Of a stretch of DNA of 64,000 nt, positions 5,645 through 51,882 are shown piece by piece. Under the pieces are notes generated by a model that was given only the letters and a program-made list of their open reading frames with translations, was not told where the DNA came from and did no database searches. The stretch covers positions 930,001-994,000 of the forward strand of contig OX381705.1 in the NCBI GenBank assembly GCA_947462335.1. Reading direction: 5' to 3'. Source of the DNA: Harmothoe impar (taxonomy: Eukaryota; Annelida; Polychaeta; Phyllodocida; Polynoidae). Within the stretch, counting starts at the first letter, position 1, and every line of letters starts with the position of its first letter. The position numbers and the translations under genes were made by a program.

Positions 5645-8600
5645 TCACATGACCTTCACCTGATGACCCTCAGATGACCTTGTGTCTGGGGGAAATAACA
5701 AGGTCACAGGTATTTGCCCTTCCAGTGAGTCATCTGTCATAGGACACACATTTACCATAACTGCGGCATTGTAACCTTCAGATGAAGAATTGCTCTCAGC
5801 GGATGACCCTGACTCATTATTTTGACCTTGAGTTGACCTGTCTACATGCAGCTGTGTTGCTACAGTGTTGTAACCCTCAGATGAGGAATCACTGCTGAAG
5901 GAGGATAACCTTGACACATGGTTTTGACCTTCCGCTAACATGTTGGCCATTGGTGGCAGATTTGTGTCGACCATTTTGTACTCTCCAGATGAACTGTCAC
6001 TACACAGGGGTAACCCGTAGTCCGCATGTTGACTCTCAGTCAATTGATTTGATCCTTCATTGTCAGAGGCTGATACAAGAGGAATTTCTCTTTTCAATGG
6101 TTGTTCCCATTTTGGTGGCAAACAGGTTGCTACTGAATTATACCCCTCAGATGAACTGTCACTGGAACACGACAACAACTTGGACACAGGTGACCTCCTA
6201 GAAGGCAGATCTGTTGCTACAGTGTTGTAACCCACTGATGAGGTCTCACTCTGAGAAGGTGACCTTGCTGGAGGGTTTTGACCTTGAGATGACCTTATTG
6301 AGGGTAGATCTAATACAACAGGATTATAACCTTCAGACCTTGCCATTACAGCAACCTGACCTTGACCTGTGTCACCCTCTGCCGCCAGTTCTGTCCTTAC
6401 ACAAGTTTGACCTTGAGGTGAATGAGATAACCTTGTAGTAACCGGATTGTAACCGTCAGACGAGGCGTCGCTTCCAGATGACAACCTGCATACAATAGCA
6501 CCAGGCATTCTTCTTGATGGTCCAGCTTTATCTGAAGGTGACTTTCTACTGGTTGTGGCATCTAGCAGCCAGGACAAACTTGTGCTGACAGCTCTGTAGC
6601 TGCAACCCCCAGAGTCACTACCAGCAGAATTAGCACCAGAGCCACCACTACCATGGTTAGTGCCAGAGTCAGTAGTACTAGAGTTTGTACCAGAGTTAGT
6701 AGTACCAGAGGTATCAGAATTTGTACCAGCAGAGTTAGTGTTAGCAGACCTGTAGCTTGAGGTGTGTGAGGGGGAGGAGGGGTGCTGTATAGGCTTGTAG
6801 CCTGAAGTGTGTGAGGGGGAGGAGGGGTGCTGTATAGGCTTGTAGCTGGAGGTGTGTGAGGGGGAGGAGGGGTGCTGTATAGGCTTGTAGCTTGAGGTGT
6901 GTGAGGGGGAGGAGGGGTGCTGTATAGGCTTGTAGCTTGAGGTGTGTGAGGGGGAGGAGGGGTGCTGTATAGGCTTGTAGCTTGAGGTGTGTGAGGGGGA
7001 GGAGGGGTGCTGTATAGGCTTGTAGCTGGAGGTGTGTGAGGGGGAGGAGGGGTGCTGTATAGGCTTGTAGCTGGAGGTGTGTGAGGGGGAGGAGGGGTGC
7101 TGTATAGGCTTGTAGCTGGAGGTGTGTGAGGGGGAGGAGGGGTGCTGTATAGGCTTGTAGCTGGAGGTGTGTGAGGGGGAGGAGGGGTGCTGTATAGGCT
7201 TGTAGCTGGAGGTGTGTGAGGGGGAGGAGGGGTGCTGTATAGGCTTGTAGCTGGAGGTGTGTGAGGGGGAGGAGGGGTGCTGTATAGGCTTGTAGCTTGA
7301 GGTGTGTGAGGGGGAGGAGGGGTGCTGTATAGGCTTGTAGCTTGAGGTGTGTGAGGGGGAGGAGGGGTGCTGTATAGGCTTGTAGCTTGAGGTGTGTGAG
7401 GGGGAGGAGGGGTGCTGTATAGGCTTGTAGCTTGAGGTGTGTGAGGGGGAGGAGGGGTGCTGTATAGGCTTGTAGCCTGAAGTGTGTGAGGGGGAGGAGG
7501 GGTGCTGTATAGGCTTGTAGCTGGAGGTGTGTGAGGGGGAGGAGGGGTGCTGTATAGGCTTGTAGCTTGAGGTGTGTGAGGGGGAGGAGGGGTGCTGTAT
7601 AGGCTTGTAGCTTGAGGTGTGTGAGGGGGAGGAGGGGTGCTGTATAGGCTTGTAGCTTGAGGTGTGTGAGGGGGAGGAGGGGTGCTGTATAGGCTTGTAG
7701 CTGGAGGTGTGTGAGGGGGAGGAGGGGTGCTGTATAGGCTTGTAGCTGGAGGTGTGTGAGGGGGAGGAGGGGTGCTGTATAGGCTTGTAGCTGGAGGTGT
7801 GTGAGGGGGAGGAGGGGTGCTGTATAGGCTTGTAGCTGGAGGTGTGTGAGGGGGAGGAGGGGTGCTGTATAGGCTTGTAGCTGGAGGTGTGTGAGGGGGA
7901 GGAGGGGTGCTGTATAGGCTTGTAGCTGGAGGTGTGTGAGGGGGAGGAGGGGTGCTGTATAGGCTTGTAGCTGGAGGTGTGTGAGGGGGAGGAGGGGTGC
8001 TGTATAGGCTTGTAGCTGGAGGTGTGTGAGGGGGAGGAGGGGTGCTGTATAGGCTTGTAGCTTGAGGTGTGTGAGGGGGAGGAGGGGTGCTGTATAGGCT
8101 TGTAGCTTGAGGTGTGTGAGGGGGAGGAGGGGTGCTGTATAGGCTTGTAGCTGGAGGTGTGTGAGGGGGAGGAGGGGTGCTGTAGGGGCCTGTACCTAGT
8201 GAGGCAGCACTCAGAGCTGGACCTGGGGTTAGCAGTCAGCCTCAGTACAGTACACACCCCAGGGTCAGGCAGGTGGTGCGCGCTAGAATAGTCACTGATT
8301 AAACTATTTGTCGTGAACTTCTTCGCGAATGGTGGACATTTTGTCTTTTTACCCTGCCGTGGTTGGGATGGTGTGTTTGAATGGATCTGAGGGCAGGAAC
8401 CGATCAGCTTCCGGCAGCATGTACCACCAATCTCCCCTACATTGAACCACACCGTGGGGTTCAACTCAGAGTCATCGTACCCCGGCGGCTGTCCGCCATA
8501 TTGGTTGTAATATTGTCGCTGGGAGAAGCATCCGTCTGACTTACAAATTCCCGCAGCAGATAGAAAATCCTCCTTCTCCTTTGAATATTCAAACTCTGCA

Positions 8601-8887
8601 AATTTGACATTGACTTTAGCGATCTGATTCATGGGCGGTGGCTCCGGAGGCTTCTCCTTCGTGTTCTTCACCTTCCTGTCCTTGACCTTGGTCTTGTTGT
8701 CACCAAGGGCATGTTCCTCGATAGATATTGTCTCATAGTGACCGCTGTCTTGTGAATCACTGTCAGCGGGCAGAAGCGGCTGCTGCCCGAGTTCATGGTT
8801 ATTGGGCAGTAGTCTTGTTATGACCTCATTGTTAGAATCCACGAGATATCCACGCGATAAGAACTGGTCTGAACTAGTGGTATTTCT
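5645..8887 (-). CDS. Receptor exon 15: giant tyrosine-rich cytoplasmic tail
   Basis: One exon of 3243 bp encodes about 1080 residues and the stop codon; the acceptor TTAATTGCAG precedes 8887. From the membrane side it has GHYETI, an acidic/basic stretch, then RQYYNQYGGQ with two adjacent YxxQ sites (STAT3-docking type in vertebrate receptors). Next come 31 copies of a 15-aa SSYKPI-containing repeat, a Ser/Thr/Asn/Gly-rich spacer, and about seven spaced GYNxV-type tyrosine motifs. The tail is far longer than in vertebrate gp130 (under 300 aa). The frame is fully open through the repeats, which implies selection against frameshift. Confidence 0.85.
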   Translation of the reverse strand, partial: RNTTSSDQFLSRGYLVDSNNEVITRLLPNNHELGQQPLLPADSDSQDSGHYETISIEEHALGDNKTKVKDRKVKNTKEKPPEPPPMNQIAKVNVKFAEFEYSKEKEDFLSAAGICKSDGCFSQRQYYNQYGGQPPGYDDSELNPTVWFNVGEIGGTCCRKLIGSCPQIHSNTPSQPRQGKKTKCPPFAKKFTTNSLISDYSSAHHLPDPGVCTVLRLTANPRSSSECCLTRYRPLQHPSSPSHTSSYKPIQHPSSPSHTSSYKPIQHPSSPSHTSSYKPIQHPSSPSHTSSYKPIQHPSSPSHTSSYKPIQHPSSPSHTSSYKPIQHPSSPSHTSSYKPIQHPSSPSHTSSYKPIQHPSSPSHTSSYKPIQHPSSPSHTSSYKPIQHPSSPSHTSSYKPIQHPSSPSHTSSYKPIQHPSSPSHTSSYKPIQHPSSPSHTSSYKPIQHPSSPSHTSSYKPIQHPSSPSHTSGYKPIQHPSSPSHTSSYKPIQHPSSPSHTSSYKPIQHPSSPSHTSSYKPIQHPSSPSHTSSYKPIQHPSSPSHTSSYKPIQHPSSPSHTSSYKPIQHPSSPSHTSSYKPIQHPSSPSHTSSYKPIQHPSSPSHTSSYKPIQHPSSPSHTSSYKPIQHPSSPSHTSSYKPIQHPSSPSHTSSYKPIQHPSSPSHTSSYKPIQHPSSPSHTSSYKPIQHPSSPSHTSGYKPIQHPSSPSHTSSYRSANTNSAGTNSDTSGTTNSGTNSSTTDSGTNHGSGGSGANSAGSDSGGCSYRAVSTSLSWLLDATTSRKSPSDKAGPSRRMPGAIVCRLSSGSDASSDGYNPVTTRLSHSPQGQTCVRTELAAEGDTGQGQVAVMARSEGYNPVVLDLPSIRSSQGQNPPARSPSQSETSSVGYNTVATDLPSRRSPVSKLLSCSSDSSSEGYNSVATCLPPKWEQPLKREIPLVSASDNEGSNQLTESQHADYGLPLCSDSSSGEYKMVDTNLPPMANMLAEGQNHVSRLSSFSSDSSSEGYNTVATQLHVDRSTQGQNNESGSSAESNSSSEGYNAAVMVNVCPMTDDSLEGQIPVTLLFPPDTRSSEGHQVKVM

Positions 8888-11800
8888 CTGCAATTAAAAA
8901 CACGAGAAAATTAACCAACACCGTTGGCTAAATGAATATTTAATGGCTGAACTACTTATTATTACCTTCCTCTGTGAGTAAAAACACCAGATATGAACCA
9001 ATAATGTCAGATTAATAAATCTTTACCAGGTGAACTATTTATTTTTATTATTAATGCAGATATGGGAGAAGTTGAATTATTGAAAAGCCAAATGGCGTCG
9101 GTTACTTATGGCTACTATTACAAGAAGTGTGCAAGACGGCCAAATTGGGAGGAAAGGTCAGTTTAGGATTGGGTTACAATTCAGTTTAACCTTTTAACAC
9201 TTTAAGGATGGCATAATGCATTAAAGTATCATGTCATTGGTCATCATAATGCATGGATACCGCCCTGGTGAGTAACTTGCCAGTGCTGCATTCAAGCATC
9301 ATGCTGACCCCACGGGGTTGAGACACTCCTGAAGGGTTGGCATGATGCAGCGCCGGTGAGTTACTCGCAGGGCTGGATTGGTGCATCATGATGACAAATG
9401 TCATCTTTTAGCGACATACCGTCCTTAAAGAGTAAACATAGTAGTTTATTTAACTCTGCCCACTACTTGTTGTCATGATGCACCAATGCTGACCTAAGGA
9501 GGGACAGCATTCATACATCATGGCAGGGCAGCATGATGCATGCATGAATGCAGCACTGGTGAGCTGATTGCAGCATTTTAGTTAAGAACCGGTTGGACTA
9601 GTTGTAGAAACCGGTAGCTACAACGCAAGTTTTCTAAGACCCCAAAGATCATACATGCTCCTACAGTTTTGAAAATAGTACAATTTTGGCCTATTTTCTA
9701 ATCACAGCATTATAGCAAATTACACAATGTTTTGTTTCAGATTTTAGCCCTACAAAATTGGATGGCATAAGTCTAACTCGCGTATAGACCACATCCCTTT
9801 GACAAATCATATAAGCCACAGAGGGGGTTTGAATTTTGGTATTTCGGTGATGTGATATAAACATAAAAACTCTCATATTAGCTGCACCTTATGTAGGCAT
9901 ATTTGGTATCAAATGGAGTCGAGTTGCGGCTTCTATGCCATACTTTACGGTAGTTTTCCCGTTTCTGGGACTAGTCTCTGAGATGTAAAAGCACTAACCT
10001 GTACGGAGACAGCAGAGGGAGTGATGGGTTGGGGGATGTTGGACTTGATGTAGCGCCCGGTCCTCCTGATGGTGAACATACAGACAGGTTAACACACATC
10101 TCTACTTACTACAGTGTCTTAAAGTGACATGGGCCGATGATTAGGGCTCAAAAAATCAATTTTGTTATAAATGAACAGGAATGTTCCCCATGGCCATACT
10201 TCATGTGCCAGATACTTTTTAATCTCATTCCCTAGAATTGAGCTTAGAATATGACAAAATATCAGATTATGGCTCAATTTGCTAATTTTGGAGTGCACGC
10301 TACAAGATTTCCCGATTGAAAATACACTGTAAAGTATTATTCTTTGGCCACATCTGAATAAATTACATTTTACTAGGCCCCATCCTCCAAATATGATATT
10401 GTACTAACATTTGAAACATATTTAAGCAGGATTTAAAATATGAAAAAATATCGGACCATGTCACTTTGATGTTTCAAACCTTTAGACCACACTAAAACAA
10501 ACATTGGTCAATAGATTTCACTTTAAAAAAGAATCGTGCAACGAGCAAAATTTTCATCAATTTTGAACCATTTTTTTTGTTGATGGATTTTGCAGCCTCC
10601 GACAAAAAGTTTTTTTAGATATAATTTTGAAGTTAAGCTACAAGTATTTAACTTCTATGTTTTTATAAAATGGTTGGCCGTGCATTATAGCCTCGGAGAA
10701 GTCAAGTGACCGTTTGTTATAGAGTAACAGTGCACGCTGAGCTGCTACAACTAGGTCAAAGGCCTTATATTGACACAGGAAATGTACAACATCATAGTAT
10801 CTAGATCACTATAATGTCAATAAGTTTATAGCTGTGGAGTGCAAAAAATACAATCTATACGGTTATGTATCTCCTCAGGATAAAAATAAATGAAATAAGA
10901 ACAAAAACAAAATAACTGATTTATAAAAACAATAGAAAATCCGTTCCTCACACCTCGAATGTCTGTTGTCCTATAATGCACTCTGATGCATTTGTTCATT
11001 ATAGGAAAACAGACAGCCTCAACGTAGAGAACATCGTTTTCTATTCTCTAAATAACGACCCACCTCCCTACGATGACGAGGATGACGAGCACGAGGAGGC
11101 TGCCGAGCGAGATGAGGAGGACGGTCAGCGCCATGTTGGCCGGCACTGGGAGGGCAACACAAGAACAACAAGAACTATTTGAAAATGGCACTCCGATCTG
11201 TATTTTATAGAAAACATAACAACGAAAAGACACAAAAGATAGTGCGATATACCATTAGGAACCTAAAATTTATGTGAAGACATCTATCTACTTTTTGTTG
11301 AGATGAAATGAGAATTCAAATTTTTTGAATTATTTAAGTATTTTTTTCAAAATGTCTATTCAATAGAATAATGTGTATCTCTGTGGTTGGTTTTTTATTC
11401 AATTTGTCCCTCTAACATTTGGGTGTCCAAACTGTCCATACACAAAATGAATAAAATCCTCCAAGCCTTTTATTTTTACTGTTTTTTTATTTTATCCTCC
11501 GTGCATTGAAAAGTTTCTGAGGTGTCCATAACCCCCCCCCCCCCCCCAAAAAAAAAGTATGGCCTAAGATATACAACACAACCAGAATACCAAATCGGTT
11601 TACCAGATGCCAGAGTTTAGAACCCACAGTTCTGACTCAAAACGGCCTCTCAAAAGGCTGCTTCAAGTACACATCTTCAAGGACAGGTTATCAAGCTAGG
11701 TTAGTTATTGTATAATAAGGATTATAGTTTTTATAATATTTCTTACTGAGTTACTTGAGTCTAAATACGCCAACAGTGTGACCAGTTTCTAAACATGCTT

Positions 11801-38387: not shown

Positions 38388-40310
38388 TCAGTCTGTGTTA
38401 CCCTGAAGACATGTGAATAGCATTGGCCCTCCATAACTAGGCCCGCTACCATAGGGTAGTGCATGAAAGTTAGAGTGATCATATATATACCCATCAATAG
38501 AAGGCTCACTCTCACCAGATCGATGCAACTATTATTTGGACGTACATGATCGGCGGACGTACATGATCGGCGGACGTACATGATCGGTGACGTACATGAT
38601 CGGTGACGTACATGATCGGTGACGTACATGATCGGGAGTTATTGACTGCCCTACCCTTTCTGACCATGTTAAAACATAAATATATCTTACCAAGGTGTGC
38701 ATATGGTGTGTGTCTTGACATGTTCTATGTTAGACATGTGTATAGGACTAGGAATAGAATTTTACTTGACATTTCAATACCGATCATGTACGTCATGTGA
38801 CGTACATGATCGGTGACGTACATGATCGGTGATTATTGACTGCCCTACCCTTTCTGAACAAGGAAAAACATAAATAAACCTTACCCAGGTGTACATATGA
38901 TGTGTGTCTTGACATGTAAGATGTTAGACATGTGTAGATGCGACTAGTAAGAGTATTTTACATGACATTTGAAATACCGATCATGTACGTCATGTGACGT
39001 ACATGATCGGCCATTATTTATTGACTGTCTTAATTACCCTTTCTGACCATATATAAAACATAAATCAATCATAGCAAGGTGTACATATGATGTAGGTCTA
39101 AATATGTATAATCATAGACATGTAAAGCAGTGGGTAATGAGGAAATGTTACATGACATTCCAAGCCGATCATGTACGTCATGTGACGTACATGATCGGTT
39201 ACACATTGAGCCCCCCCCGCCTCCGGCCCCTATAAATATTTTGGGAGTTTTTTTTTCTAATAAACTCCCCAAAGATACATTACAGCCTGTAGGTATGGTT
39301 GGGAGAGTTAAACATCGTAGTGCAGGGGGTAAAAGATGGATTTTGTACTCTGCCGATCATGTACGTCTGCCGATCATGTACGTCCGCCGATCATGTACGT
39401 CACTTTTTTAGTTGCACTGATTTGGTGAGAGTGAGCCAGAAACAGTGTTGCCCTTCATTCTTACATCTGCTCCTGGTACAAGTCGTGCAGCTGCTGCTAT
39501 TTGTTGAATTTCCTTAGATTTCAGGAGTTCATCATCAGTCATATCATTAGAGAAAGTGACTTTGTCATATCGGCTTCCCTTGACATTGTCTCTCATGCCA
39601 AATATCTCCGACTTCATGGGTGCTGTGGTACAACGAAGTTTTATGGGCCTTACCCATGAATTTCTCTGTGGGGGGGCGGGGGGGCCGGGGGGAGGGGGGG
39701 TGGGGGCCTTTCCCATCCGTGAGGCACCATTAGTGACAGCGTACACAAAAGAGAGTTTTAACTGTGTGAATAAATGCCTCATGGTTAGATGCATCGGTTC
39801 ACCATGTACTTCTGGGACCCCTCTTATTATGATGTTTAACTCGCGCTGGGAATCATCGATTTTCAGATCTTTTTCCTCCCTTTTCTCAAGTTTTTGCTCG
39901 ATTTTCTCGATTTGTTCTTCAAGCTCCCCCATTTCAAGTCTAACACTAGCTACTGACGCTTCAACCGCGGTTTTATTGTTCGCAATGTCGGTGCGTAACT
40001 CGCCGAGGGTAGTATCAATGTCATCCTGTTTGTTAAGAATACTTTCTAATTGGCCAGTAGTTTTAGTTTTGTGTTCTACCAATTGGTTTAAAGAGGATCG
40101 GACTTCTTTCATAAACTTTTCCATTTCTGAATCCCCCATAGTGTATTGGTCACCGGTGGTCTGGGCAGTGTTGATGGTAGTAGTGGCTATGGAGGAAGCA
40201 GTACTCACTGGTGGTGGATCTGGTGTCGTATCGACAGGTGAAAATGTATTTCTGTTCCTACCTTCGATCCTTCTTAGCTCCATACAACCAAAATTGGTAC
40301 AGATATTCAC
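38388..40310 (-). pseudogene. LINE ORF1 (coiled coil + RRM-like), split by a DNA element
   Basis: The intact upstream part (40310 to about 39438) encodes a Ser/Thr-rich N-terminus, a long coiled coil (TLGELRTDIANNKTAVEAS through KIEQKLEKREEK), then an ORF1p-like nucleic-acid-binding domain starting ELNIIIRGVPEVHG and including VTFSNDMTDDELLKSKEIQQ. A 935-bp element at 38503-39437 interrupts it. Skipping the element and one AGAA copy resumes the same frame for about 37 codons to a stop at 38388. No reverse transcriptase follows, so this is a partial non-LTR retrotransposon. The clade is unresolved. Confidence 0.75.
38503..39437. mobile_element. Iteron-rich non-autonomous DNA element, 935 bp
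   Basis: The ends GGCTCACTCTCACCAGATCG and its inverse at 39410-39437 form the TIR, and AGAA flanks both sides (38499-38502, 39438-39441). Just inside are direct copies of GACGTACATGATCGG: six at the left and three inverted at the right. The interior has three units of about 190 bp, each ending in two 16-bp arms (CCGATCATGTACGTCA and inverse) 2 nt apart, at 38780, 38977 and 39165. No coding capacity. Confidence 0.85.
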
Positions 40311-40723
40311 TGTGATCTTATACCACCGACAAATCCAACTTAGAGACTTTAGGTTTCCTATATCACATTAAATCTAGCAGTATTGTCCCCTGTGTGCGTC
40401 GGTGCGTCTACCTGGTTGCCGCCATTGCCGTCTATAGTCAATGCTTGGCGTTAACTGACTCCTGCCCTTATTTATTTAATTGTGAGGTTTAATTAAGTGG
40501 TCTCACTGTAAGTTCATACAATCAGGATTAAGATAATAATTGACGAGGAGAAAGACCGACACTATTGTTAATTATGTTCAGAATTAACTGGGATTATTAA
40601 TTTCTAATTCTGTTCAGATTGCCATGCAGGAGTAATAGTTGAGATTAATTTGCCATCTCATATAATCCTATTTCTGGGAACACTCATTAATTACGTTATT
40701 TTTGAGTTATATGTCAAAAGAAA

Positions 40724-42359: not shown

Positions 42360-42365
<6 letters not shown>
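42360..42365. other. Left target-site duplication TATATG
   Basis: The six bases before the left terminal AG equal the six bases after the right terminus at 51877-51882. Six bp is the standard Polinton duplication size. Because the host site is an AT repeat, partial matches by chance are easier, but the final G is shared as well. Confidence 0.8.
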
Positions 42366-42367
<2 letters not shown>

Positions 42368-42707
42368 TAGTATAGTATGTATCGGAACGGGACTATAGTT
42401 AAGTACTGTTTATTACTCAATCGACATGCAGCCAATCAGAGGCCTCCATTTGGTCACGTGACCGGAAGTGACCTACTTAGGGGATTAGTGGTGACGTCAC
42501 GTGACCTAGTTAGCCAATCAGAGGCCTCCATTTGGTCACGTGACCGGAAGTGACCTACTTAGGGGATTAGCGGTGCATTCTGGGTAACCCTGCAGCCAAT
42601 CAGAGGCCTCCATTGGGTGACCGGAAGTGACCTACTTAGGGGATGGTGCATTCTGGGTAACCTACTGACCTACTTAGGGGACCGGAAGTGACGTCATATG
42701 ACCTAAT
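42366..42707. repeat. Left terminal inverted repeat (342 bp)
   Basis: Matches the inverse of 51535-51876 with about two substitutions. It is built from subrepeats: AGCCAATCAGAGGCCTCCAT (three copies), GGTCACGTGACC (two), ACCGGAAGTGAC (several), GTGACGTCAC and GGTGCATTCTGGGTAACC. Inside it the sequence continues with further diverged CCGGAAGTGAC / TCACGTGA units to about 42830. Confidence 0.9.
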
Positions 42708-43019
42708 TTAGGATCACGTGATCGGAAGTGACCTGATGAGTCACGTGACCGGAAGTGACGTCACACGACTTAATGGCCAATCGGAAGCGACCTGATTGAT
42801 CACGTGACCGGAAGAAGAAGAAGTTTTTTTTTTGTTTAGGATCCCGTGACTGGAAGCGACGTCGTCACATGAGTGACGCTTTAAGAGACTGCGCGACTTA
42901 CTAGTAAAAGAAGCCGTATGATAATAAAAACACAACAATATTTTCTTTTAATTTTTTTTTATTTTTTTTTTTCAATCTTGATAAACACTCTATTTTTGAA
43001 AAGATGCACACGCTTATTT

Positions 43020-43025
43020 TTTATT
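43020..43025 (-). terminator. Polyadenylation signal after the polymerase gene
   Basis: AATAAA on the minus strand lies 10 bp past the stop codon, within an A-rich run. Confidence 0.4.
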
Positions 43026-43034
43026 TTTTTTTTT

Positions 43035-46000
43035 TCATATCTCTAAAGGACTCGTTGTCACACCGTCAGAATGCACGCGACGCTTATAATACAAGTAGCG
43101 CACGCCGTCTTTCTCTATGGTGTAGGTGACCATTTTGTTTCGCACCACTTTGAAATTTCTATTTACAGCAATGAGAGTTTTTCGTTGGCGAAGAACATCC
43201 AAGAAGGCGTCTGGTTCCTGGGGGTTTTGTTTCTTCTGTACGCCTTTTGCACTCCATTTTTTGGATTTTCTTTCACCGGTGTCGCTGACTCGATCGTAGC
43301 AAATGTAAGTCTTAGGGTTGAGACTTAGGATCCCGTCACCTTCCCACTCCGCTTTCATGAGCCCCGAAGTTCTCAGATCGTGAAGGTACCGTCTCTCACA
43401 ACATCCGCCGGGCGGCGCACACCATTCTCGCACTCTTTCCGTTTTTGTCTTCACGAAAAGCTCTAAGTGCTCGTCGCACACCGCTGTCGGAAGCCACTTT
43501 CGTTTCTCTCTGAAGTACGTCTCTCTCAGGCGAGGTTTCACTAGGTCATCCAACGTGGCACCGCTGAGAGCCATGTAAAGACTGTCGGTGTCCATTTGAC
43601 AAAGGGCATAATCGCGCCGATCGACGAATCTATCCAAGAAGTCGTATGTGAACTCTAACATTTTCAACTTCGCGTACTGGTATACCATGAACCCTATCTG
43701 AATAGGGAGGTTGTTCTTGACCGTTTTCGGTTGTAGTTCGACTTCAAACAGATCGGAAGTCAACTCGGACGCCTTTTTGAAGCGCCACGAATTGGCCAAT
43801 AGTTCGAACTTCCGACTGTCAGTGTATCTCACCGCCGTGTGTTTTTCTTTGTTGCAGATTGTTTTACCGTACGTAGCGTTTCCCATTAACTTGTAACAGT
43901 CTGACAGAATTTTCTCGTTCTCGTTCACGTCGCCACGTCTTCGCGCCGCCGTCACTTCGTCCGCGAAACCGGCAAAGGAGCGTTTAGGTAGGTATTCTAC
44001 CACCAGCTGCACTTTGGTGACTATCAAACCGTGCTCTAAATACCACTTGAGAAGCGGCGTTCCCAAGAGAATATTTTTTCCGTGGTAACTCCCTATCAGA
44101 CATCTCTGAGGCGTGCTCAACAGCTTTTCTTCCTGCGCAAAGTCTGACATGTGAGGGCCTATGTCCGATTTTGAAACGGTCGCGTTCTTGAAAACGGGGG
44201 TCATTTCTTCGAAGTACTCTCGTAGGTGAGGCGGCGTAGTGATGTCCACTTGAACTAAACCGAACATTTTCTCCTCTTTCACAGCGGAAAGGATGTCGCT
44301 CTCGCTCATCGCGTTTCGAGACACTTTCAAAGCGTCAACCTTCCAGCGTTGTTGGGAGGCCTTGACCCGCTCATCTCGACGCTTCATCTCTCGCCATTCG
44401 CACTCCCACACGACGACCAGCTTGTAACCTAACGCTTTCAAGTAAGCGCTTACTCTGGTCGTTCTGTCGCGTCTCTCCTCTCTCAGTGAAGCGCACTGAT
44501 ATCGGTGCGACGGTATGCACTCGTGAGCGTGGAACCAACACCCGTGAAACTGGAAAACCGTATTAGAGGCCGCGTGAAATCCGTCCACGCGAATTCTCCG
44601 ACAGCCTACCGCCATCTCGCCGCCGTTCAGAGCGTGGCGCAGTTTCACGTCGCGGTCGTGCTCTACGAAGCGTAACCACTCCAAAGCGCTGTGAGAGTTT
44701 CTTTGCCTGATTTCGGGCTTGAACTCGGTCTCGGGCCGTCTCACCGCGTAATAGCCCGTGCAGTGCGCTTCGCTCATGCAGCGCAAGTACAGAGAGTTAG
44801 CGTCTAGTCCTAGGATGTGTTGGCACGGTCTCGCTTCTTCGCCGTACTTGTGCTCCCTTATCCGCGTGGTGCCCTTCTCGTGAAATCTATGGAAGATGAT
44901 GGAAGGACCGCCGACTAGATTCTCTTTGATCAGAGCGTGGAGGACGGCGTCGAACTGGGGAAACGTTGTGAACGCGTCTTCTAGGTTTTGGAAGAGGAAG
45001 CGTAAAGTCAAACCGGCGAGAGAAACTCCGTCTTTCAACATGTCGATGCCGCGATCTTGGAAAAATTTAGCGTGATTTTTCAGAGCTTCTATGAAAGGTT
45101 TCACGTCTTTGTTGTTGTAGTGGATCAAGTAGTCTTCCATAGTTTGCATCTTCTCGTCGGACCAAACTTTCTGACATGCGGCGTAGTCGGATTCGGACAT
45201 TTTGACGCCCGTCAGCTCGCTGTCGAAAGCCGATCTCGGCGGCAGCGTTCTGTTTGCCAGTTTCCTGGTAGACGTCATCCATTCGTAAGGAAAGTGACCT
45301 TTCTCTTCGTTCCTGGTGAAAGCTCGCAAATAGGTCGCGTAGTTGTAACCGGGTGCCAAATAGTTGACTACGTCCAAGAAAACCGTGTGCTGTGTGTAAA
45401 CCGCCAAGTATTGATTGCTTCTCTTTATGACGCTGAATTCTTGGTTTCTTCGGTCTCCGGAGGCGAAGAACGAGTGAAGGCGTATTTTGATCAGGTTCAA
45501 GTCGTAACGCCCCGAGTTGAAGCCCACCACTGGAGCTTGACGGATGTATCTCAGAAGACGCTTCTTCAGTTGAACTAACGGGTGTCTGGTCTGAGCCGCA
45601 GCGAAGCCGCCTGGAGAAGGGGTGGTGAACGTCGCCTCCTCCAGCAGGAGAGCTTCACCTATCGCCGCATCTAACTTCGCTAACGTCGGTCGGTAAAGTT
45701 CTAGCACAGCTTCCCCGATCGCTTTGGCGTTCTCGTTTATGTGATTTAAAACTCGGTCCAACAAGGGGTCGGAATCTGCGTCGGACGCTCTGACGAAGCA
45801 GACGGGCCCCTCCCACCCCGGAAAGTCGGATGCGACGCTAGCCGACAAAGGGACGTGATCCCACAGCAGGGACACGTGCTCCGTCGACGGTTCTTTGCAC
45901 GGTCTGAAGAAAGCCTCGAAATCGAAGGCGATCTTGTAAGGGTAGATTCCGGAATGTCCGTCGGGGGGAAAAATGGAGAAGTCTGCTAGCGCTTCGAAAA

Positions 46001-47162
46001 TCGTTCTCGAATTTTGGTAGATGCCACCTACGTAGCGCAACTTGACTTGTCGGCAAGAGGAAAGCTGGTTCCTGTGTCTCTTCAGCAAGAACTCGGTGGT
46101 GAACGCCGCCTTACACTTGCAACATTCGTATATGCCCGCGTACGCGTTGAAGTCCGTGACGAGAGAGACGTGCAAACCGCCTTTCGCCGTCAGGTGTAGG
46201 TTGACTTTACCTCGGGCGGCCACAGTTCTGGAAGGCGGTCTGATCAGAGTAACGCGTCTTCTCAACTTCCGCCCCGGCACTTGACGCGACGCGGTGTAAA
46301 CCGCTATTTGTACGTCAAACAAGTTCTCTAACGCGGGTAAGTCGCGGATGTTCAGACCCGGAAAGGATTCAGGTGTGGCAGCGGGACAGAACTGACGTAA
46401 CAAATCTGAAGCGCGCTTGCTGGTGTTGTATAAGTGAAAGGAAATGCAGCGGAAGATGCAGAGGTTGTCCTTGTTGGGAAAATCTAACACGCCGCTTCTC
46501 TTTCCAACTCGACCGGCCTGAGTGATCCTACCGCCTATGGGGAATTCCCCCGGTCCCATGTAAACGCAGATGTTCAAATTGGTAGGAAAAAGAACGTGCC
46601 ACTTGGTGTCAGCGTCGCAAAGTTTCCGTACCTCCTCGCAAGCGACGGTGTTTTGCATCTTTGAGAGGAGCTCTTCCAAAGTTTCTGAATTAGTTACAGT
46701 AGGGAGCGGTTGTATGAGAGTTGCGTTGTTCTGGGAGGCGTGGAAGTAGCGCAGTTTGCTCTTGTCTTCTCTGTGTTGTAACAGTAAGCCTACCGAGAAA
46801 CCCACTTTGTATCTGAATCTTTGTGTCAAGTGAATGCGACGCATAGTATCTACAGCGTCACTCAACTCGCCGGTTGGTAGCCTGAAGTTTGTTACACTCA
46901 CGCGAGTCCCGTGCATCCTGACGCCCGTTTGTATCGCAGGCCAATTCGCCGTGAACGTTTCCTCCCCGTTCGGTACAGCACATATGCGCGGAGGGACGGT
47001 CACCCCGTCCAGAGATTCGCGTCGACAAGCGCTCTTTCGGCAATCCCCTTCGCCGCATAGAGGGCAAAACTTAGCTACTACTCTACAATTTTCTACGTGT
47101 CTCTCGTGGTTGTACGCTCTTTTAAACATTTTGAAACACTTTTCGCATACGTACTGTGTCAT
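43035..47162 (-). CDS. polB: Protein-primed family B DNA polymerase with zinc-finger, OTU-like and Vsr-like parts
   Basis: The start is the ATG at 47162 with A at -3; the frame is open slightly further upstream without ATG. The protein has 1375 aa. In numbering four higher than from this ATG: a C2H2-like finger (residues 10-30), an OTU-protease-like segment with D236-x-x-C239 and H335, and a second Cys/His cluster near 352-374. The exonuclease motifs are DFE (418-420), N553/D558 and Y686xxxD690. The polymerase motifs are A DANSLY (791), B KLMGNATYG (1095), C MDTDSLY (1194) and KTY (1288). Between A and B lies FHGCWFH ... VVVWECEW, a Vsr-endonuclease-like insertion. All catalytic residues I can recognise are present, so proofreading and synthesis should both work. 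It would copy the linear element from a protein primer. Confidence 0.9.
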   Translation of the reverse strand: MTQYVCEKCFKMFKRAYNHERHVENCRVVAKFCPLCGEGDCRKSACRRESLDGVTVPPRICAVPNGEETFTANWPAIQTGVRMHGTRVSVTNFRLPTGELSDAVDTMRRIHLTQRFRYKVGFSVGLLLQHREDKSKLRYFHASQNNATLIQPLPTVTNSETLEELLSKMQNTVACEEVRKLCDADTKWHVLFPTNLNICVYMGPGEFPIGGRITQAGRVGKRSGVLDFPNKDNLCIFRCISFHLYNTSKRASDLLRQFCPAATPESFPGLNIRDLPALENLFDVQIAVYTASRQVPGRKLRRRVTLIRPPSRTVAARGKVNLHLTAKGGLHVSLVTDFNAYAGIYECCKCKAAFTTEFLLKRHRNQLSSCRQVKLRYVGGIYQNSRTIFEALADFSIFPPDGHSGIYPYKIAFDFEAFFRPCKEPSTEHVSLLWDHVPLSASVASDFPGWEGPVCFVRASDADSDPLLDRVLNHINENAKAIGEAVLELYRPTLAKLDAAIGEALLLEEATFTTPSPGGFAAAQTRHPLVQLKKRLLRYIRQAPVVGFNSGRYDLNLIKIRLHSFFASGDRRNQEFSVIKRSNQYLAVYTQHTVFLDVVNYLAPGYNYATYLRAFTRNEEKGHFPYEWMTSTRKLANRTLPPRSAFDSELTGVKMSESDYAACQKVWSDEKMQTMEDYLIHYNNKDVKPFIEALKNHAKFFQDRGIDMLKDGVSLAGLTLRFLFQNLEDAFTTFPQFDAVLHALIKENLVGGPSIIFHRFHEKGTTRIREHKYGEEARPCQHILGLDANSLYLRCMSEAHCTGYYAVRRPETEFKPEIRQRNSHSALEWLRFVEHDRDVKLRHALNGGEMAVGCRRIRVDGFHAASNTVFQFHGCWFHAHECIPSHRYQCASLREERRDRTTRVSAYLKALGYKLVVVWECEWREMKRRDERVKASQQRWKVDALKVSRNAMSESDILSAVKEEKMFGLVQVDITTPPHLREYFEEMTPVFKNATVSKSDIGPHMSDFAQEEKLLSTPQRCLIGSYHGKNILLGTPLLKWYLEHGLIVTKVQLVVEYLPKRSFAGFADEVTAARRRGDVNENEKILSDCYKLMGNATYGKTICNKEKHTAVRYTDSRKFELLANSWRFKKASELTSDLFEVELQPKTVKNNLPIQIGFMVYQYAKLKMLEFTYDFLDRFVDRRDYALCQMDTDSLYMALSGATLDDLVKPRLRETYFREKRKWLPTAVCDEHLELFVKTKTERVREWCAPPGGCCERRYLHDLRTSGLMKAEWEGDGILSLNPKTYICYDRVSDTGERKSKKWSAKGVQKKQNPQEPDAFLDVLRQRKTLIAVNRNFKVVRNKMVTYTIEKDGVRYLYYKRRVHSDGVTTSPLEI

Positions 47163-47365
47163 GTTTTTTTTCACTCGGTTACCAACTACTTAGCCGTCTA
47201 ACTATCTATCTATCTATCTAGCCATCTATCAATCTGTCGTCTATGTAACTATCTTTCTGTCTGCTGTCTGTGTATCCGTCTGTCTGTCTGTCTGTCTGTC
47301 TGTCTCATACAGCGTACGTCAAACGCTGTGTGTGTGTGTGTGCGCGCGTGAGCGTTGAGCGTCTC
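47163..47365. repeat. Intergenic TATC / TGTC microsatellites
   Basis: (CTAT)n at 47203-47222 and (TGTC)n at 47278-47303, with a GTGTGTGTG tract at 47331-47341, separate the PC4-like and polymerase genes. No TATA box is evident for the polymerase. Confidence 0.7.
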
Positions 47366-48952
47366 TCATTCCGAATCTATGCCGAGATATTTCAGAATGA
47401 TCTCTGTTTTGTCATCCAACTCTTTGAGCGCTCTGGCGGACAGCGTCACCCCCTGCTGTGTGGGTTTTTTGTCAGGACCTTCGTACTTGCGCACGTGGAC
47501 GAGGTTCTTACCGCTGTAGTAGCTCACAGCTGCGTACACTTCGCCCGCCTCATCCAGCACTGCGAACCAGGGGGTGTGATTAGGTTTTCCTTGCGCGGCC
47601 GCTGTGTCGCGTATGCGCACCACTGCGCGGATATCGGCGATGCGTGCTATGAGCTCGCGCAGCGCGTCGGCCGTGAAGTGCACTCGCTTGCTTCTGGTCA
47701 GAGACGCCTCTTTCACCTGGCCGTCTTTTGTGTAGCGCGGCCTCCTAGACAGTCTAGCCACGTCCTCCCAGATCTCCAGCGTCAAAGCTCCGTCTAAGCA
47801 GAACTCTAACCCGAGTGTTTTCTCTGCTTCTTCTCGTCCATCTCCTTCTTTTTCTTGTATTTTTCTCTTCTTAGTGGGCCTTGTTGTTCTGGAACTCACC
47901 TTAGAACGTTTCACACCCGCAGGATGAGTAACACCATCAGCGTGAGCTGAATCAGCAGCAGAACCGATAGCAGGAGCAGCGTCAGCGCTGGTGGTATCGG
48001 AGGTCTCGTTGTTGGAACAGCGCAGCCACACGCCGTCCGTGCTGTGTGTAGCGGTAGAAGATGAAGCGCCGCCGCCGCCCTCGTAAGGTGGCGGTGAGGG
48101 CAGTCGCCACGGACCGGACGGGGGGGCGCTAGCAGTGGAGGAAGTGAGGTCGAAAGGTCGAAGAGGGAAGCCGAAAAACGTACCGCTCACCCCTTGCCCT
48201 TCGGGTTCTTCGTACGCCTCGTCGTCAGCGTCGTTCTCTGTCTCACCCTGTTGCTGCTCCTCCTCCTCCTCTTCTTCTCGGTTCAGGGGCTGAGTGTCCG
48301 AATAGCTGTAACTCTCAGCGCGAGCGGCGTCGAGGGCGTCCGTCGATGTAGTGGTGGAGGAGAGGGGCTGTGCAACGTGCGGCAGGTCATCAAAGTCATC
48401 AACAGTAGTGGGGAGGTAAAAACCCGGTTGCCAGTACTGCGCTGTGCCAGGAGCGTTGTCGTCAGTAGTAGTAGCAGTAGCAGCAAGTGCAGCAGAAGCA
48501 GCCGCAGCAGGCGCAGCCGCAGCAGACGCAACAGTAGCAGGCGCAGCAGCAGCCTCAGCAGGCGCAGCCGTAGCAAGCGCAGCAGTAGCAGGCGCAGCAG
48601 CAGCAGCAGCAGCAGCAGCAGCGGCAGGCGGGACGGCGGTAGCAGCGGCAGCGCGCTTAGCAGCAACGTGTACCGTCGCGAGTGTAACAACGTCGCTAGC
48701 ACGACGACTGCTACCAGTAGTACTACTAGTACTACTACCACTACTACTACTACTGCTACTACTAGTGCTACTGCTACTACTACTACTACTACTACTGCCG
48801 CGAGCGCTCGCTACAGCAGGAGGGTGATAAGACCAACCGGCTGCGGCGGTAGTCTCATGTTCAGTAGCAAGAGCAGGCACTGACGCTAAACGAACGCTGT
48901 TCCGCGTAGTCTTCTTGTTCTTGAACGCCGCTAGCTGTTGTCTTTTGCTCAT
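47366..48952 (-). CDS. Low-complexity Polinton protein with PC4-like C-terminal domain(s)
   Basis: The start is the ATG at 48952 in an ideal ACCACCATG context; the protein has 528 aa. The N-terminal half is poly-Ser, poly-Ala and acidic (REEEEEEEQQQ), with a PPPY motif near residue 290 and a basic nuclear-localisation-like run (TRPTKKRKIQEK) near 360. The C-terminus reads YAAVSYYSGKNLVHVRKYEG and KPTQQGVTLSARALKELDD, matching the PC4 (p15) strand-strand-helix pattern '(V)...G..LV.IR.Y....G...P..KGI.L....L..L'. A weaker copy precedes it (RRPRYTKDGQVKEASLTRSK, FTADALRELIARI). By inference it is an ssDNA-binding partner of the polymerase. The fold call needs a profile search. Confidence 0.6.
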   Translation of the reverse strand: MSKRQQLAAFKNKKTTRNSVRLASVPALATEHETTAAAGWSYHPPAVASARGSSSSSSSSSSTSSSSSSSSGSSTSSTTGSSRRASDVVTLATVHVAAKRAAAATAVPPAAAAAAAAAAAPATAALATAAPAEAAAAPATVASAAAAPAAAASAALAATATTTDDNAPGTAQYWQPGFYLPTTVDDFDDLPHVAQPLSSTTTSTDALDAARAESYSYSDTQPLNREEEEEEEQQQGETENDADDEAYEEPEGQGVSGTFFGFPLRPFDLTSSTASAPPSGPWRLPSPPPYEGGGGASSSTATHSTDGVWLRCSNNETSDTTSADAAPAIGSAADSAHADGVTHPAGVKRSKVSSRTTRPTKKRKIQEKEGDGREEAEKTLGLEFCLDGALTLEIWEDVARLSRRPRYTKDGQVKEASLTRSKRVHFTADALRELIARIADIRAVVRIRDTAAAQGKPNHTPWFAVLDEAGEVYAAVSYYSGKNLVHVRKYEGPDKKPTQQGVTLSARALKELDDKTEIILKYLGIDSE

Positions 48953-49013
48953 GGTGGTGACTGTAGAGAGCAGCAAAAAAGAATGAGTGAGTGAATGGAG
49001 GTTTCCAAGCCCC

Positions 49014-49020
49014 TTATATA
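49014..49020 (-). promoter_or_regulatory. TATA box of the PC4-like gene
   Basis: TATATAAGG on the minus strand lies about 62 nt before the ATG at 48952, the spacing expected for initiation near 48985-48990 and a short leader. Confidence 0.55.
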
Positions 49021-49072
49021 CGCCTTCTCGCTTCTAGAGCTAAGCTACTTACCGACCCTGTTCAGCTGCCGC

Positions 49073-49405
49073 CGGCTGGCCGGCGGCCATTCACAAAGAG
49101 AAACAAAAAGACATAAGGCATGACGTTTTCAGCTGGATCCCTTTCCCCCCCCCTCTTTTGAGAGATCGACTGTGATGATGAGCTAAGCCGCTTACCACCC
49201 TGTTCAGCAATTCAACGCGCATTAGCTGTATAAAGGGTTAAGCGGTTGCTGCCTGCCGTCGACTGACCGGCGGCGGCCATTCACAAAGACATAAGGTATG
49301 ACGTTTTCAGCTGGATCCCTTTTTGAGGGATCCACTGTGGTGAGCTAAGCCGCTTACCACCCTGTTCAGCCATTCAGCGCGCGTTAGCTGTATAAAGGAT
49401 TAACG
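49073..49405. repeat. Direct duplication in the divergent promoter region
   Basis: Two copies of a block with CGGCCATTCACAAAGA, GACGTTTTCAGCTGGATCCC, GAGCTAAGCCGCTTACCACC, CTGTTCAGC and TTAGCTGTATAAAGG (about 49083-49240 and 49272-49400). Each contains a TATAAAG element on the plus strand. A third AGCTAAGC...TTACCGACCC fragment lies at 49040. They probably regulate the two divergent genes. Confidence 0.7.
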
Positions 49406-49910
49406 GTAACGGTGATGAGCTTACAGTGTGTATACAAAAAAAAACTACAGGAGGCGTGTGGCGTGAAGCAGGACCCCCCTAAGACGAACGTGTCTGTCTG
49501 TGAGTAGAGGCGTGTGCATGTGGTGAGCGACTTAAGTGTAAGACAAAAATCGCCACCTCCTGCCGTGGTGAGTAGACCGGGCCGGCCAGGCGGGCGGGCG
49601 GCCGGCTAGTTCAATAGGGAGGGGTGACAGCTGCCTAAGGCTGTGCATGAAAAAAAATCCGATTTTCACCTGACCTCTGACGTTTGTTACAATGAATGTC
49701 AGAGGGAGGGAGACGTCCTCGGGTAGGGGGTAGGAGGTATTAAGGCTATGAGTGAGGAAAAAACACCGTTTTCAGCTGGTCTCCACGGATAGCGATGCCA
49801 CACCCCCTCGTCATCTAAGCTCTTAAGGAGCGGAGCGGCTGAAAAAGCGTCATGCGGACAGGGTGCTAGACAGCTGGAGCGCTGTTGGAAATGGGATTAA
49901 ACTCCCTCTG

Positions 49911-49918
49911 TATAAAAA
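49911..49918 (+). promoter_or_regulatory. TATA box of the tandem death-domain gene
   Basis: TATAAAAAG lies about 150 nt before the ATG at 50060. Initiation near 49940 would leave a leader containing the CCG/CCA repeat. Confidence 0.45.
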
Positions 49919-49969
49919 GCTCTCATTTCTGTTGGAAAAAAAACATATCACCTCTGACCCCAGTAACGG

Positions 49970-50002
49970 CTACTACCACCACCACCGCCACCACCACCAC
50001 CG

Positions 50003-50033
<31 letters not shown>

Positions 50034-50045
50034 TGCCGCCGCCGC
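49970..50045. repeat. CCA/CCG triplet repeat in the leader of the death-domain gene
   Basis: (ACC)n grading into (GCC)n ends 15 bp before the start codon. Frames through it give poly-Thr/Ala or Arg/His and are not real proteins. Confidence 0.85.
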
Positions 50046-50059
50046 CAAGACGAGACGAG

Positions 50060-50809
50060 ATGGCTCAAGCTATTCCACTTTCAAGCTCGCCTTCACCGCC
50101 CGGTGCGCCTGAAAAAAAGTTAATGCGGCTTGACGACGTGAGACGCGGCGCGAGGCAGCAGACCGATGATGGGGAGACCCGACAGGTAGGACAGCGGCGG
50201 TTAGCCTATAGCGACGCCTTGCTTCGTCAACTAGGTAAAGAGTTGAGCGGCTGTTGGAGAGAGTTGGGCAGTAGCTTAAAAGTCAGCGCCGCCCGTATGG
50301 ATGCTCTAGTAGAGCGCAGTGTCAAGACACCGGAGGAGCTGTGTACGGCGATGTTCCGAGTGTGGTGGGGTGAAACCCCGCATCGTCATAGATGGGGCGA
50401 GCTCGGTCGCGTCTTCACCCGCATAAGACGCATGGAACTGTTGGCTCAGTGGATGGCCCTTCTCCACAGACAGGGGTTGGATTTCGAAAACCCCGACTCG
50501 CGCGCGATGCATAAGCACTTGGGCACCCTCGGCAGACGTCTGGGTAGCAGGTGGAAAGAGGTGGGGGACCATTTAAAATTGTCGCCTGAGAGGTTAGATA
50601 AGATCGCTGAAGAATGCGAATACGGAGGAAGTCCCGCTGAGTGGGCCTTCCGAGTGTTGAAAATGTGGCAAGATGAAGCTGACGGCGCCGGCGGTACGCC
50701 TTTTGAACTCCTTCGAGTGTTGACTGAGGACATGGGAAAGTTTGGCCTCGGCATCGCGATATTACTTGACTTTATCAAGCAAGAAACAACGAGAACGACG
50801 GACATGTGA
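50060..50809 (+). CDS. Tandem death-domain protein carried by the Polinton
   Basis: The 249-aa protein starts at an ATG with G at -3 and +4. Residues 1-50 are a Pro/Ser- and Arg-rich leader. DD1 (about 53-137) reads LLRQLGKELSGCWRELGSSL, RMDALVERSVKTPEELCTAM, then FRVWWG; DD2 (about 152-240) reads LGRRLGSRWKEVGDHLKLSP, LDKIAEECEY, FRVLKMWQDEADGAGGTPFE and LLRVLTE. 'LG..W...(A/G)..LKLS...(L/M)D.I' with 'R.L..W......A....L...L' is the canonical six-helix death-domain pattern. It has no kinase, caspase or membrane segment. By inference it is an adaptor or decoy acting on host apoptosis or innate signalling. No Polinton core gene resembles it. Confidence 0.8.
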   Translation: MAQAIPLSSSPSPPGAPEKKLMRLDDVRRGARQQTDDGETRQVGQRRLAYSDALLRQLGKELSGCWRELGSSLKVSAARMDALVERSVKTPEELCTAMFRVWWGETPHRHRWGELGRVFTRIRRMELLAQWMALLHRQGLDFENPDSRAMHKHLGTLGRRLGSRWKEVGDHLKLSPERLDKIAEECEYGGSPAEWAFRVLKMWQDEADGAGGTPFELLRVLTEDMGKFGLGIAILLDFIKQETTRTTDM

Positions 50810-50960
50810 ATTGTTGTGTTTTATTTTCATACGTCTTCTTTATTAGTAAGTAAAAAAAAAAATATCATAACAATTAAGACGCGCGATCTCTTAAAGTGTC
50901 ACTTCCTCCAGTCGCAGCTGATCGCCTCATCGCAGCACGTGATAAACAAAAAAAAAACGA

Positions 50961-51002
50961 AGAGACACGCTTCTTCCTCTCGAGAGGAAGAAGCGTGTCT
51001 CT
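50961..51002. repeat. 42-bp perfect palindrome downstream of the death-domain gene
   Basis: AGAGACACGCTTCTTCCTCT and its exact inverse meet at the centre with no spacer (TCTC|GAGA). It begins about 150 bp after the stop codon, inside the element. Confidence 0.9.
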
Positions 51003-51054
51003 CGATTGAAATCTTTTTCTTTTCTTTTTTTCTTAAAAGAGACAAACGCCCCTT

Positions 51055-51200
51055 AGAGTGCTCCCCCACCCCCCTAGAGTGCCCCCCTCCCCCCTCCCCC
51101 CCTCCCCCCCACCACCCGCCCCATGCATCCTAAAAGCGCCCCCCTCCCCATGCATCTTAAAGAAGCCCCCCTCCCCCCCTCCCCTCCCCTCCCCCCCTTA
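51055..51200. repeat. C-rich low-complexity tract
   Basis: CCCCCTCCCC runs alternate with ATGCATCCTAAAAGCGCCC-type and CACTCTAAAGAACG units. No gene; part of the right non-coding arm of the Polinton, which also holds AATAAA at about 51260. Confidence 0.7.
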
Positions 51201-51427
51201 TACACTCTAAAGAACGCTTCTACCTAGTTCAATAAGTCACTTCCAGTCGCTCGTAAAACAATAAAAAATGAAGAAAAATGAAAAAAAAACTTATATCGTA
51301 GTGTTTTTTATTAGTTTACCGAAAAAAAATAAGAGACTCGCCTCCTCCTCCAAAAAAAAAAGATATCACATTTTAAAGCCCGTGACCCCTTAAAGACGCT
51401 CATCTCTTCATTAAGTCGCGTGACGTC

Positions 51428-51458
<31 letters not shown>

Positions 51459-51534
51459 CTTCTTCTTCCGGTCACGTGATCAATCAGGTCACTTCCGGTC
51501 ACGTGATCCTCAATGAGGTCACTTCCGGTTGGCC

Positions 51535-51876
51535 ATTAGGTCATGTGACGTCACTTCCGGTCCCCTAAGTAGGTCAGTAGGTTACCCAGAATGCACCATC
51601 CCCTAAGTAGGTCACTTCCGGTCACCCAATGGAGGCCTCTGATTGGCTTCAGGGTTACCCAGAATGCACCGCTAATCCCCTAAGTAGGTCACTTCCGGTC
51701 ACGTGACCAAATGGAGGCCTCTGATTGGCTAACTAGGTCACGTGACGTCACCACTAATCCCCTAAGTAGGTCACTTCCGGTCACGTGACCAAATGGAGGC
51801 CTCTGATTGGCTGCATGTCGATTGAGTAATAAACAGTACTTAACTATAGTCCCGTTCCGATACATACTATACTACT
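51535..51876. repeat. Right terminal inverted repeat (342 bp)
   Basis: Inverse of the left TIR with the same subrepeat order. Inward of it the subrepeats differ from the left side in order and number, then reach a (CTT)n tract at 51427-51468, the counterpart of the short GAAGAAGAAG tract on the left. Confidence 0.9.
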
Positions 51877-51882
51877 TATATG
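51877..51882. other. Right target-site duplication TATATG
   Basis: Identical to 42360-42365; marks the right boundary of the Polinton. Confidence 0.8.

Follow-up and report, generated by a model that had tools for sequence, protein, structure and literature searches.

A compact Polinton-type element of Harmothoe impar as the likely replication half of a divided Polinton

Polintons are treated as one-piece elements in which polymerase and integrase travel together. The locus described here lies in a window of 64,000 nucleotides of the polychaete Harmothoe impar (GenBank assembly GCA_947462335.1, contig OX381705.1, positions 930,001 to 994,000 of the forward strand; "the window" is this whole stretch). 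A sequence-only reading had described the element, which we call type A, as a miniature Polinton that could be borrowing integrase from full Polintons; half of a split Polinton is the better description. We consider it likely that A and a second type with the same tip, B, stem from a Polinton or adintovirus whose functions have been shared out, replication to A and integration with packaging to B, and that each piece acts on the other. This reading draws on the gene content of A and B where read, their shared tip, their 6-bp target-site duplications (TSDs), the number of ends in the genome and the youth of A; complementation in trans, packaging and an action of A's death-domain protein on the host are what it would add to these.

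The ends of the window copy are as follows.
42360..42365, left TSD, TATATG
42366..51876, type A element, 9,511 bp, opening with AGTAGTATAG and closing with CTATACTACT, AG...CT termini
42366..42707, plus strand, left terminal inverted repeat (TIR), its first 98 bp the same as in three B ends read from the tip
42428..42644, plus strand, 82-bp tandem units within the left repeat, the unit repeated about 2.7 times
51535..51876, minus strand, right TIR
51877..51882, right TSD, TATATG
Left-end motifs of A: CCAAT, CACGTG, CCGGAAGT and TGACGTCA

AG ends and a 6-bp TSD are defining Polinton traits. Aligned to each other, the two repeats agree in 299 of the first 300 columns and in 338 of the first 340, and similarity drops beyond. 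The TSD of this copy is weak evidence when taken alone, because in its TA-rich flank two hexamers would agree by chance about 20% of the time. The other copies settle the question: 17 of the 18 others seen at both ends have 6-bp TSDs that differ from copy to copy.

Three genes fill A.
43035..47174, minus strand, PolB, 1,379 amino acids as listed from GTG, PF03175 at 29.9 bits (cut-off 25.8)
44340..44588, minus strand, Vsr-like mismatch endonuclease domain inserted between palm motifs A and B of PolB, residues 863-945 approximately
46140..46469 (limits approximate), minus strand, vOTU-like domain of PolB containing Cys239 and His335, residues 236-345 approximately
47366..48976, minus strand, PC4-like gene, 536 amino acids from TTG, Ala/Ser-rich with a C-terminal PC4-like domain, PF02229 at 21.9 bits (cut-off 25)
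50060..50809, plus strand, death-domain gene, 249 amino acids, PF00531 at 32.5 bits (cut-off 22.6) in two stretches

The likely start of PolB is the ATG at 47162, where the homologue P0001 begins, and that of the PC4-like gene is probably the ATG at 48952. Ten further open reading frames (ORFs) of A gave no Pfam match, and a Pfam search of its ORFs found no integrase, packaging ATPase, adenain-like protease or capsid. The longest ORF outside the three gene spans has 107 codons, so an integrase or capsid gene of usual size does not fit. The sequence-only reading had proposed Polinton-type ends with long TIRs, a 9.5-kb element with polymerase, PC4-like and tandem death-domain proteins, and the lack of those four genes. 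All of this holds: the coordinates are exact, the three ORFs are intact, and the TSDs recur in other copies.

The polymerase is of the protein-primed type with an OTU-like domain near its N-terminus, as in Polintons and adintoviruses, and would start replication by protein priming. In the predicted structure (mean pLDDT 75.9), Foldseek matched the N-terminal OTU fold to 4bop with probability 1.00 and E 0.0098, and gave no match at E <= 0.001. Cys239 and His335 of the vOTU-like domain are kept in 23 of 24 aligned PolB sequences, the window included, and those residues of the exonuclease and palm that we checked are kept in 23-24 of the 24. In the Vsr-like insert, Asp864 and His882 are present in all 24, and two other His in 21 and 22. 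A terminal protein in the N-terminal domain of PolB is proposed in PMC4061559, and PMC11071308 proposes that the OTU domain of Polinton-type polymerases detaches the terminal protein. Among viral folds, the top matches of the model were an adintovirus polymerase and those of PolB-bearing densovirus or parvovirus records, which we take to be bidna-type. In a tree of 54 of the 120 available sequences, from which the 24 were also drawn (alignment A1), the window clusters with P0001, P0002 and P0003 (SH-aLRT 100), adjoining P0004, P0005, P0006 and P0022. The four sister-clade relatives lie on contigs of 16.6, 17.6, 9.6 and 12.7 kb. Two PolB relatives (L001, L002) come from a bin whose label is that of a symbiont of the tubeworm Escarpia laminata; they are probably host DNA.

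The death-domain protein has its closest PDB sequences in RIPK1 (second domain, E 0.0085) and FADD (first domain, E 0.017), both weak matches. Three relatives at 95, 75 and 57% identity are matched by PolB relatives at 100, 77 and 65%, a parallel that would fit descent of this gene together with the element. The likeliest role of the protein would be that of a decoy directed at adaptors in cell death or innate signalling.

Is this copy one of a kind? We searched the assembly (1,511,831,793 bases in 736 contigs) with the first 1,001 bases of A. Of 1,124 candidates, 40 were scored, the window among them, and all 40 covered the whole query at 100% identity as rounded by the tool. We fetched the first 20 of the 39 scored matches outside the window, a sample that favours young copies and spans 13 contigs: 17 are full length, one carries an internal deletion, and two are incomplete, truncated by the contig end (L013) or by the edge of the stretch (L021). 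With the window copy, both ends were seen in 19 copies, of which 18 measure 9,456-9,529 bp and the internally deleted one 8,359 bp. TIRs with AG ends and a 6-bp TSD, as in Polintons, were found in 18 of these 19, every TSD being different. A full Polinton shortened by deletion, or an assembly join, would explain why most Polinton genes are absent from the window copy. Both are ruled out by the 17 other full-length copies of the same structure, and we give this explanation next to no credence. The compact lineage with its own death-domain cargo, one of two possibilities raised by the sequence-only reading, is borne out by the same 17 of 20 copies, and neither of the refuters it had named (a single deleted copy, an assembly join) explains the element.

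The 18 full-length copies differ by 0.14% on average (pairwise range 0.04-0.33%). We counted 113 minor variants: 101 are private to one copy, and none of the 12 shared ones was found within the three genes. This pattern of mostly private variants, with none shared in the genes, points to a recent burst of A. A is recently mobile, as the divergence between copies shows. The sequence-only reading had drawn the same conclusion from intact reading frames and near-identical TIRs, the latter an argument that does not stand alone since protein-primed replication is able to equalise ends.

If A moves, does it need its own genes? It could be an ordinary passenger moved by the integrase of B, its polymerase unneeded and its genes relics being lost. 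An integrase alone can insert linear DNA, which is established, PolB is broken or deleted in 5 of the 20 copies with this region in hand (whole in 15), and types C and D, described below, have spread nearly without genes where read. However, all three ORFs are intact in 11 of the 19 copies with all three gene regions in hand, the catalytic residues of PolB are kept across the 24 aligned sequences, and an integrase makes no new DNA copies, so that a polymerase would still be needed, which B lacks where read. We find the passenger explanation quite improbable. Taken singly, the PC4-like ORF has at least 550 codons in 17 of 21 copies, and the death-domain ORF is open in all 20 copies read (270-280 codons from stop to stop).

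The terminal 33 bases of A mark a much larger population. With at most 3 mismatches, they occur 7,155 times in forward and 7,178 times in reverse orientation in the whole 1.51-Gb assembly, and the reversed control occurs 0 times. At two ends per element this gives roughly 7,000 elements, which with a length of about 9.7 kb would make up roughly 4.6% of the assembly; counting only paired ends (80 of 100 listed) gives roughly 5,700 both-ended elements, or 3.7%. The pairs come from a list of the first 100 of the 14,333 ends, all within the first 5.3 Mb of one contig. They form 40 neighbouring pairs, of which 28 span 8.7-9.9 kb, 10 span 10.3-10.5 kb, one 13.2 kb and one 15.9 kb; 38 of the 40 thus fall between 8.7 and 10.54 kb. 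We classified 30 of them, mostly by their left ends, into type A (7), type B (10), type C (7) and type D (6).

The left-end sequence places all 10 listed pairs of 10,344-10,537 bp in type B. Read from the tip, the repeat of A is identical to three B ends for 98 bp and then diverges from them. The TSD of one B copy is GTTATT, again of 6 bp. We read two B interiors of 7.5 kb each (L031 and L032). Their long ORFs form the same series, and the two share 99.3% identity across 5.9 kb and 96.5% across another 1.0 kb; B therefore looks young as well. The three proteins of A gave no tblastn match in these two interiors, and the end pieces of one B copy (1.4 and 1.75 kb) are too short for the 4.1-kb PolB gene.
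ORFs of L031, on one strand: 435, 141, 372, 378 (integrase), 396, 110, 239 (ATPase) and 216 amino acids

The integrase has an rve core (PF00665 at 50 bits, cut-off 32.6) and matches a retroviral integrase at 1.3e-9, and the packaging ATPase matches Adeno_IVa2 at 24.3 bits (cut-off 21). A candidate adenain-like protease lies in L040, the right end of the L032 copy. The 435-amino-acid protein presumably resembles a major capsid protein, and we take the 372-amino-acid protein to be penton-like. A parvovirus-type NS1 helicase or capsid had no Pfam match in the tested ORFs of A and B. By these assignments, A and B where read would together make up the Polinton core set, divided and with no overlap seen. 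The need for an integrase in trans, which the sequence-only reading had anticipated, stands, whereas the source we see is not a full Polinton but the B element of about 10.5 kb with the same tip.

Could a complete Polinton nevertheless stand behind both? A and B might each be satellites of a one-piece Polinton, present or recently lost, that supplies what each lacks. The contigs of two of the four sister-clade PolB relatives, at 16.6 and 17.6 kb, are as large as a complete adintovirus, and adintoviruses are reported as one piece of 13.3-14.6 kb, two of three being near-complete, in PMC8363768. Yet of the 40 listed pairs just 2 are longer than 10.6 kb, both with type C middles, and the core set is already covered by A and B where read. 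We regard such a helper as unlikely.

Types C and D are nearly gene-free where read. In one whole copy of C, read in pieces, the left end has an Ala-rich ORF in two pieces whose coordinates adjoin in phase, and nothing else exceeds 149 codons; the TSD of one C copy is CAGTAG. In D, the 4.0 kb read of a 9.4-kb copy contains no ORF over 110 codons and has three copies of a unit of about 280 bp also present in C. The length of the 13.2-kb C copy is explained by an inserted long interspersed nuclear element (LINE) of 3.8 kb (L035:2216-5991), with an endonuclease/reverse transcriptase ORF of 1,003 codons. Repeated units of about 1.1 kb (L034:3355-9501) lie within the 15.9-kb C copy and may account for its length. 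Non-coding derivatives of ordinary DNA transposons usually shrink, and C and D staying mostly at 8.7-9.9 kb would be expected if packaging holds their length; B is longer by about 1 kb.

The left ends of the four types have further common traits. CACGTG occurs 5-7 times per 500-bp left end in each of A, B, C and D (for D, in a stretch that begins 60 bases in), against a mean of 0.03-0.18 in 100 resampled sequences. The same 500 bp hold 5 CCGGAAGT and 3 TGACGTCA in A, 5 ATTTGCAT in C and 3 TTGGCGGGAAA in D. We take the site types matched by these motifs to be E-box, ETS, CRE, octamer and E2F. The counts suggest that the ends of each type may be tuned to host S-phase or cell-type factors.

If A and B are indeed the two pieces of one Polinton or adintovirus, the PolB of A would start protein-primed replication at the shared terminal repeats, its N-terminal region probably being the terminal protein, followed by the vOTU protease, the exonuclease and the palm. 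The PC4-like protein probably coats the displaced single strand, and the death-domain protein probably binds host death-domain adaptors, dampening cell death or innate signalling during DNA copying. B would supply the integrase with chromodomain, the packaging ATPase, the adenain-like protease and the capsid-like proteins. Its integrase would insert A, B, C and D with 6-bp duplications, and the polymerase of A would copy them.

Several points weigh against such a division of labour. That the integrase of B acts on A, and the polymerase of A on B, is something we infer. The PC4-like match of A is below the Pfam cut-off and its predicted model is poor (pLDDT 50). In B, the Chromo match of the integrase (19.5 bits, cut-off 25.1) and the protease match (PF00770 at 20.7 bits, cut-off 21.3) also fall short, neither the 435- nor the 372-amino-acid candidate has a Pfam match, and the former has no meaningful PDB match. 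Substitutions in the young A copies (33 nonsynonymous and 20 synonymous, P 0.09) give no clear sign of selection, and one A copy (L025) lacks a TSD. Among the 100 listed ends, 20 have no partner, and the 7 pairs called A have left-end identities of 80-99%, older sub-lineages included, the class being given by ends and not by genes. Lengths are similar and yet unequal, B at 10.3-10.5 kb and the others at 8.7-9.9 kb. Finally, we saw no element with PolB and integrase together in a genome not exhaustively searched for one, and the classified sample comprises 30 of the 40 pairs, all from the first 5.3 Mb of one contig, so that a one-piece Polinton may exist elsewhere.

A bolder form of the two-piece reading is that of a multipartite double-stranded DNA virus of the Polinton/adintovirus lineage, living mainly as thousands of integrated segments. 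A would serve replication and host control, B integration and particles, and C and D would be nearly gene-free segments near packaging length, with one common end and one integrase for all. A segmented virus would have separate molecules with common ends and complementary essential genes; A and B have common ends and, where read, complementary genes, as integrated copies. We give this form slightly less than an even chance.

If true, the split set would show how a segmented DNA virus, or a pair of mutually dependent transposons, can arise from a Polinton. Whether Polintons form particles, a long-standing question, can be tested from genome data by way of the similar lengths of the coding and nearly non-coding types, and the death-domain gene points to viral-type control of host death signalling. 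At about 4-5% of the genome (3.7% by paired ends only), the family would be a major recent genome remodeller.

Two other features of the window lie outside the element.
5645-8893, minus strand, long frame with many tandem HPSSPSHTSSYKPIQ-type repeats, then SSEGYN motifs, which may be a host-gene exon
39408-40367, coiled-coil frame of 319 codons, presumably a LINE ORF1 by its looks

How does the pair compare with known systems? Adintoviruses and Polintons (Mavericks) share with A the PolB with an OTU-like N-terminal domain, the AG ends and the 6-bp TSD, and with B the integrase with chromodomain, the packaging ATPase and the adenain-like protease. The difference is that the genes are here divided between elements of 9.5 and 10.5 kb that share the repeat tip; the rve integrase with chromodomain, the ATPase and the protease that mark Polinton or adintovirus membership when held in the same element were not found in A. 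A double jelly-roll major capsid protein, another mark of the group, was not found in A either, and for B the 435-amino-acid protein is a candidate. In the three adintoviruses of PMC8363768, PolB, integrase and capsid-type genes lie on one molecule of 13.3-14.6 kb (the gene list being that of the first); the group is defined in PMC11071296. Bidnaviruses, including the multi-segment Vesanto virus of Drosophila, also have a Polinton-type PolB; it occupies one of several segments, and many of these have similar terminal repeats (PMC4061559 and PMC8363768). They are, however, small single-stranded DNA viruses with parvovirus-type capsid and helicase genes according to PMC4061559, whereas the ATPase and protease here are adenovirus-type and TSDs flank the integrated copies. 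Transpovirons and cytoplasmic linear plasmids resemble A alone, as replicons from Polinton-like ancestors without the structural module (PMC11071308), but A sits in the genome between 6-bp TSDs, and the absent module is carried by a partner that has the same ends.

The adenovirus replication set consists of a terminal protein, a polymerase and a single-strand binding protein, and adenovirus terminal repeats are rich in host factor sites. Compared with this set, A differs in that its terminal protein is probably fused to the polymerase and its binding protein is PC4-like.

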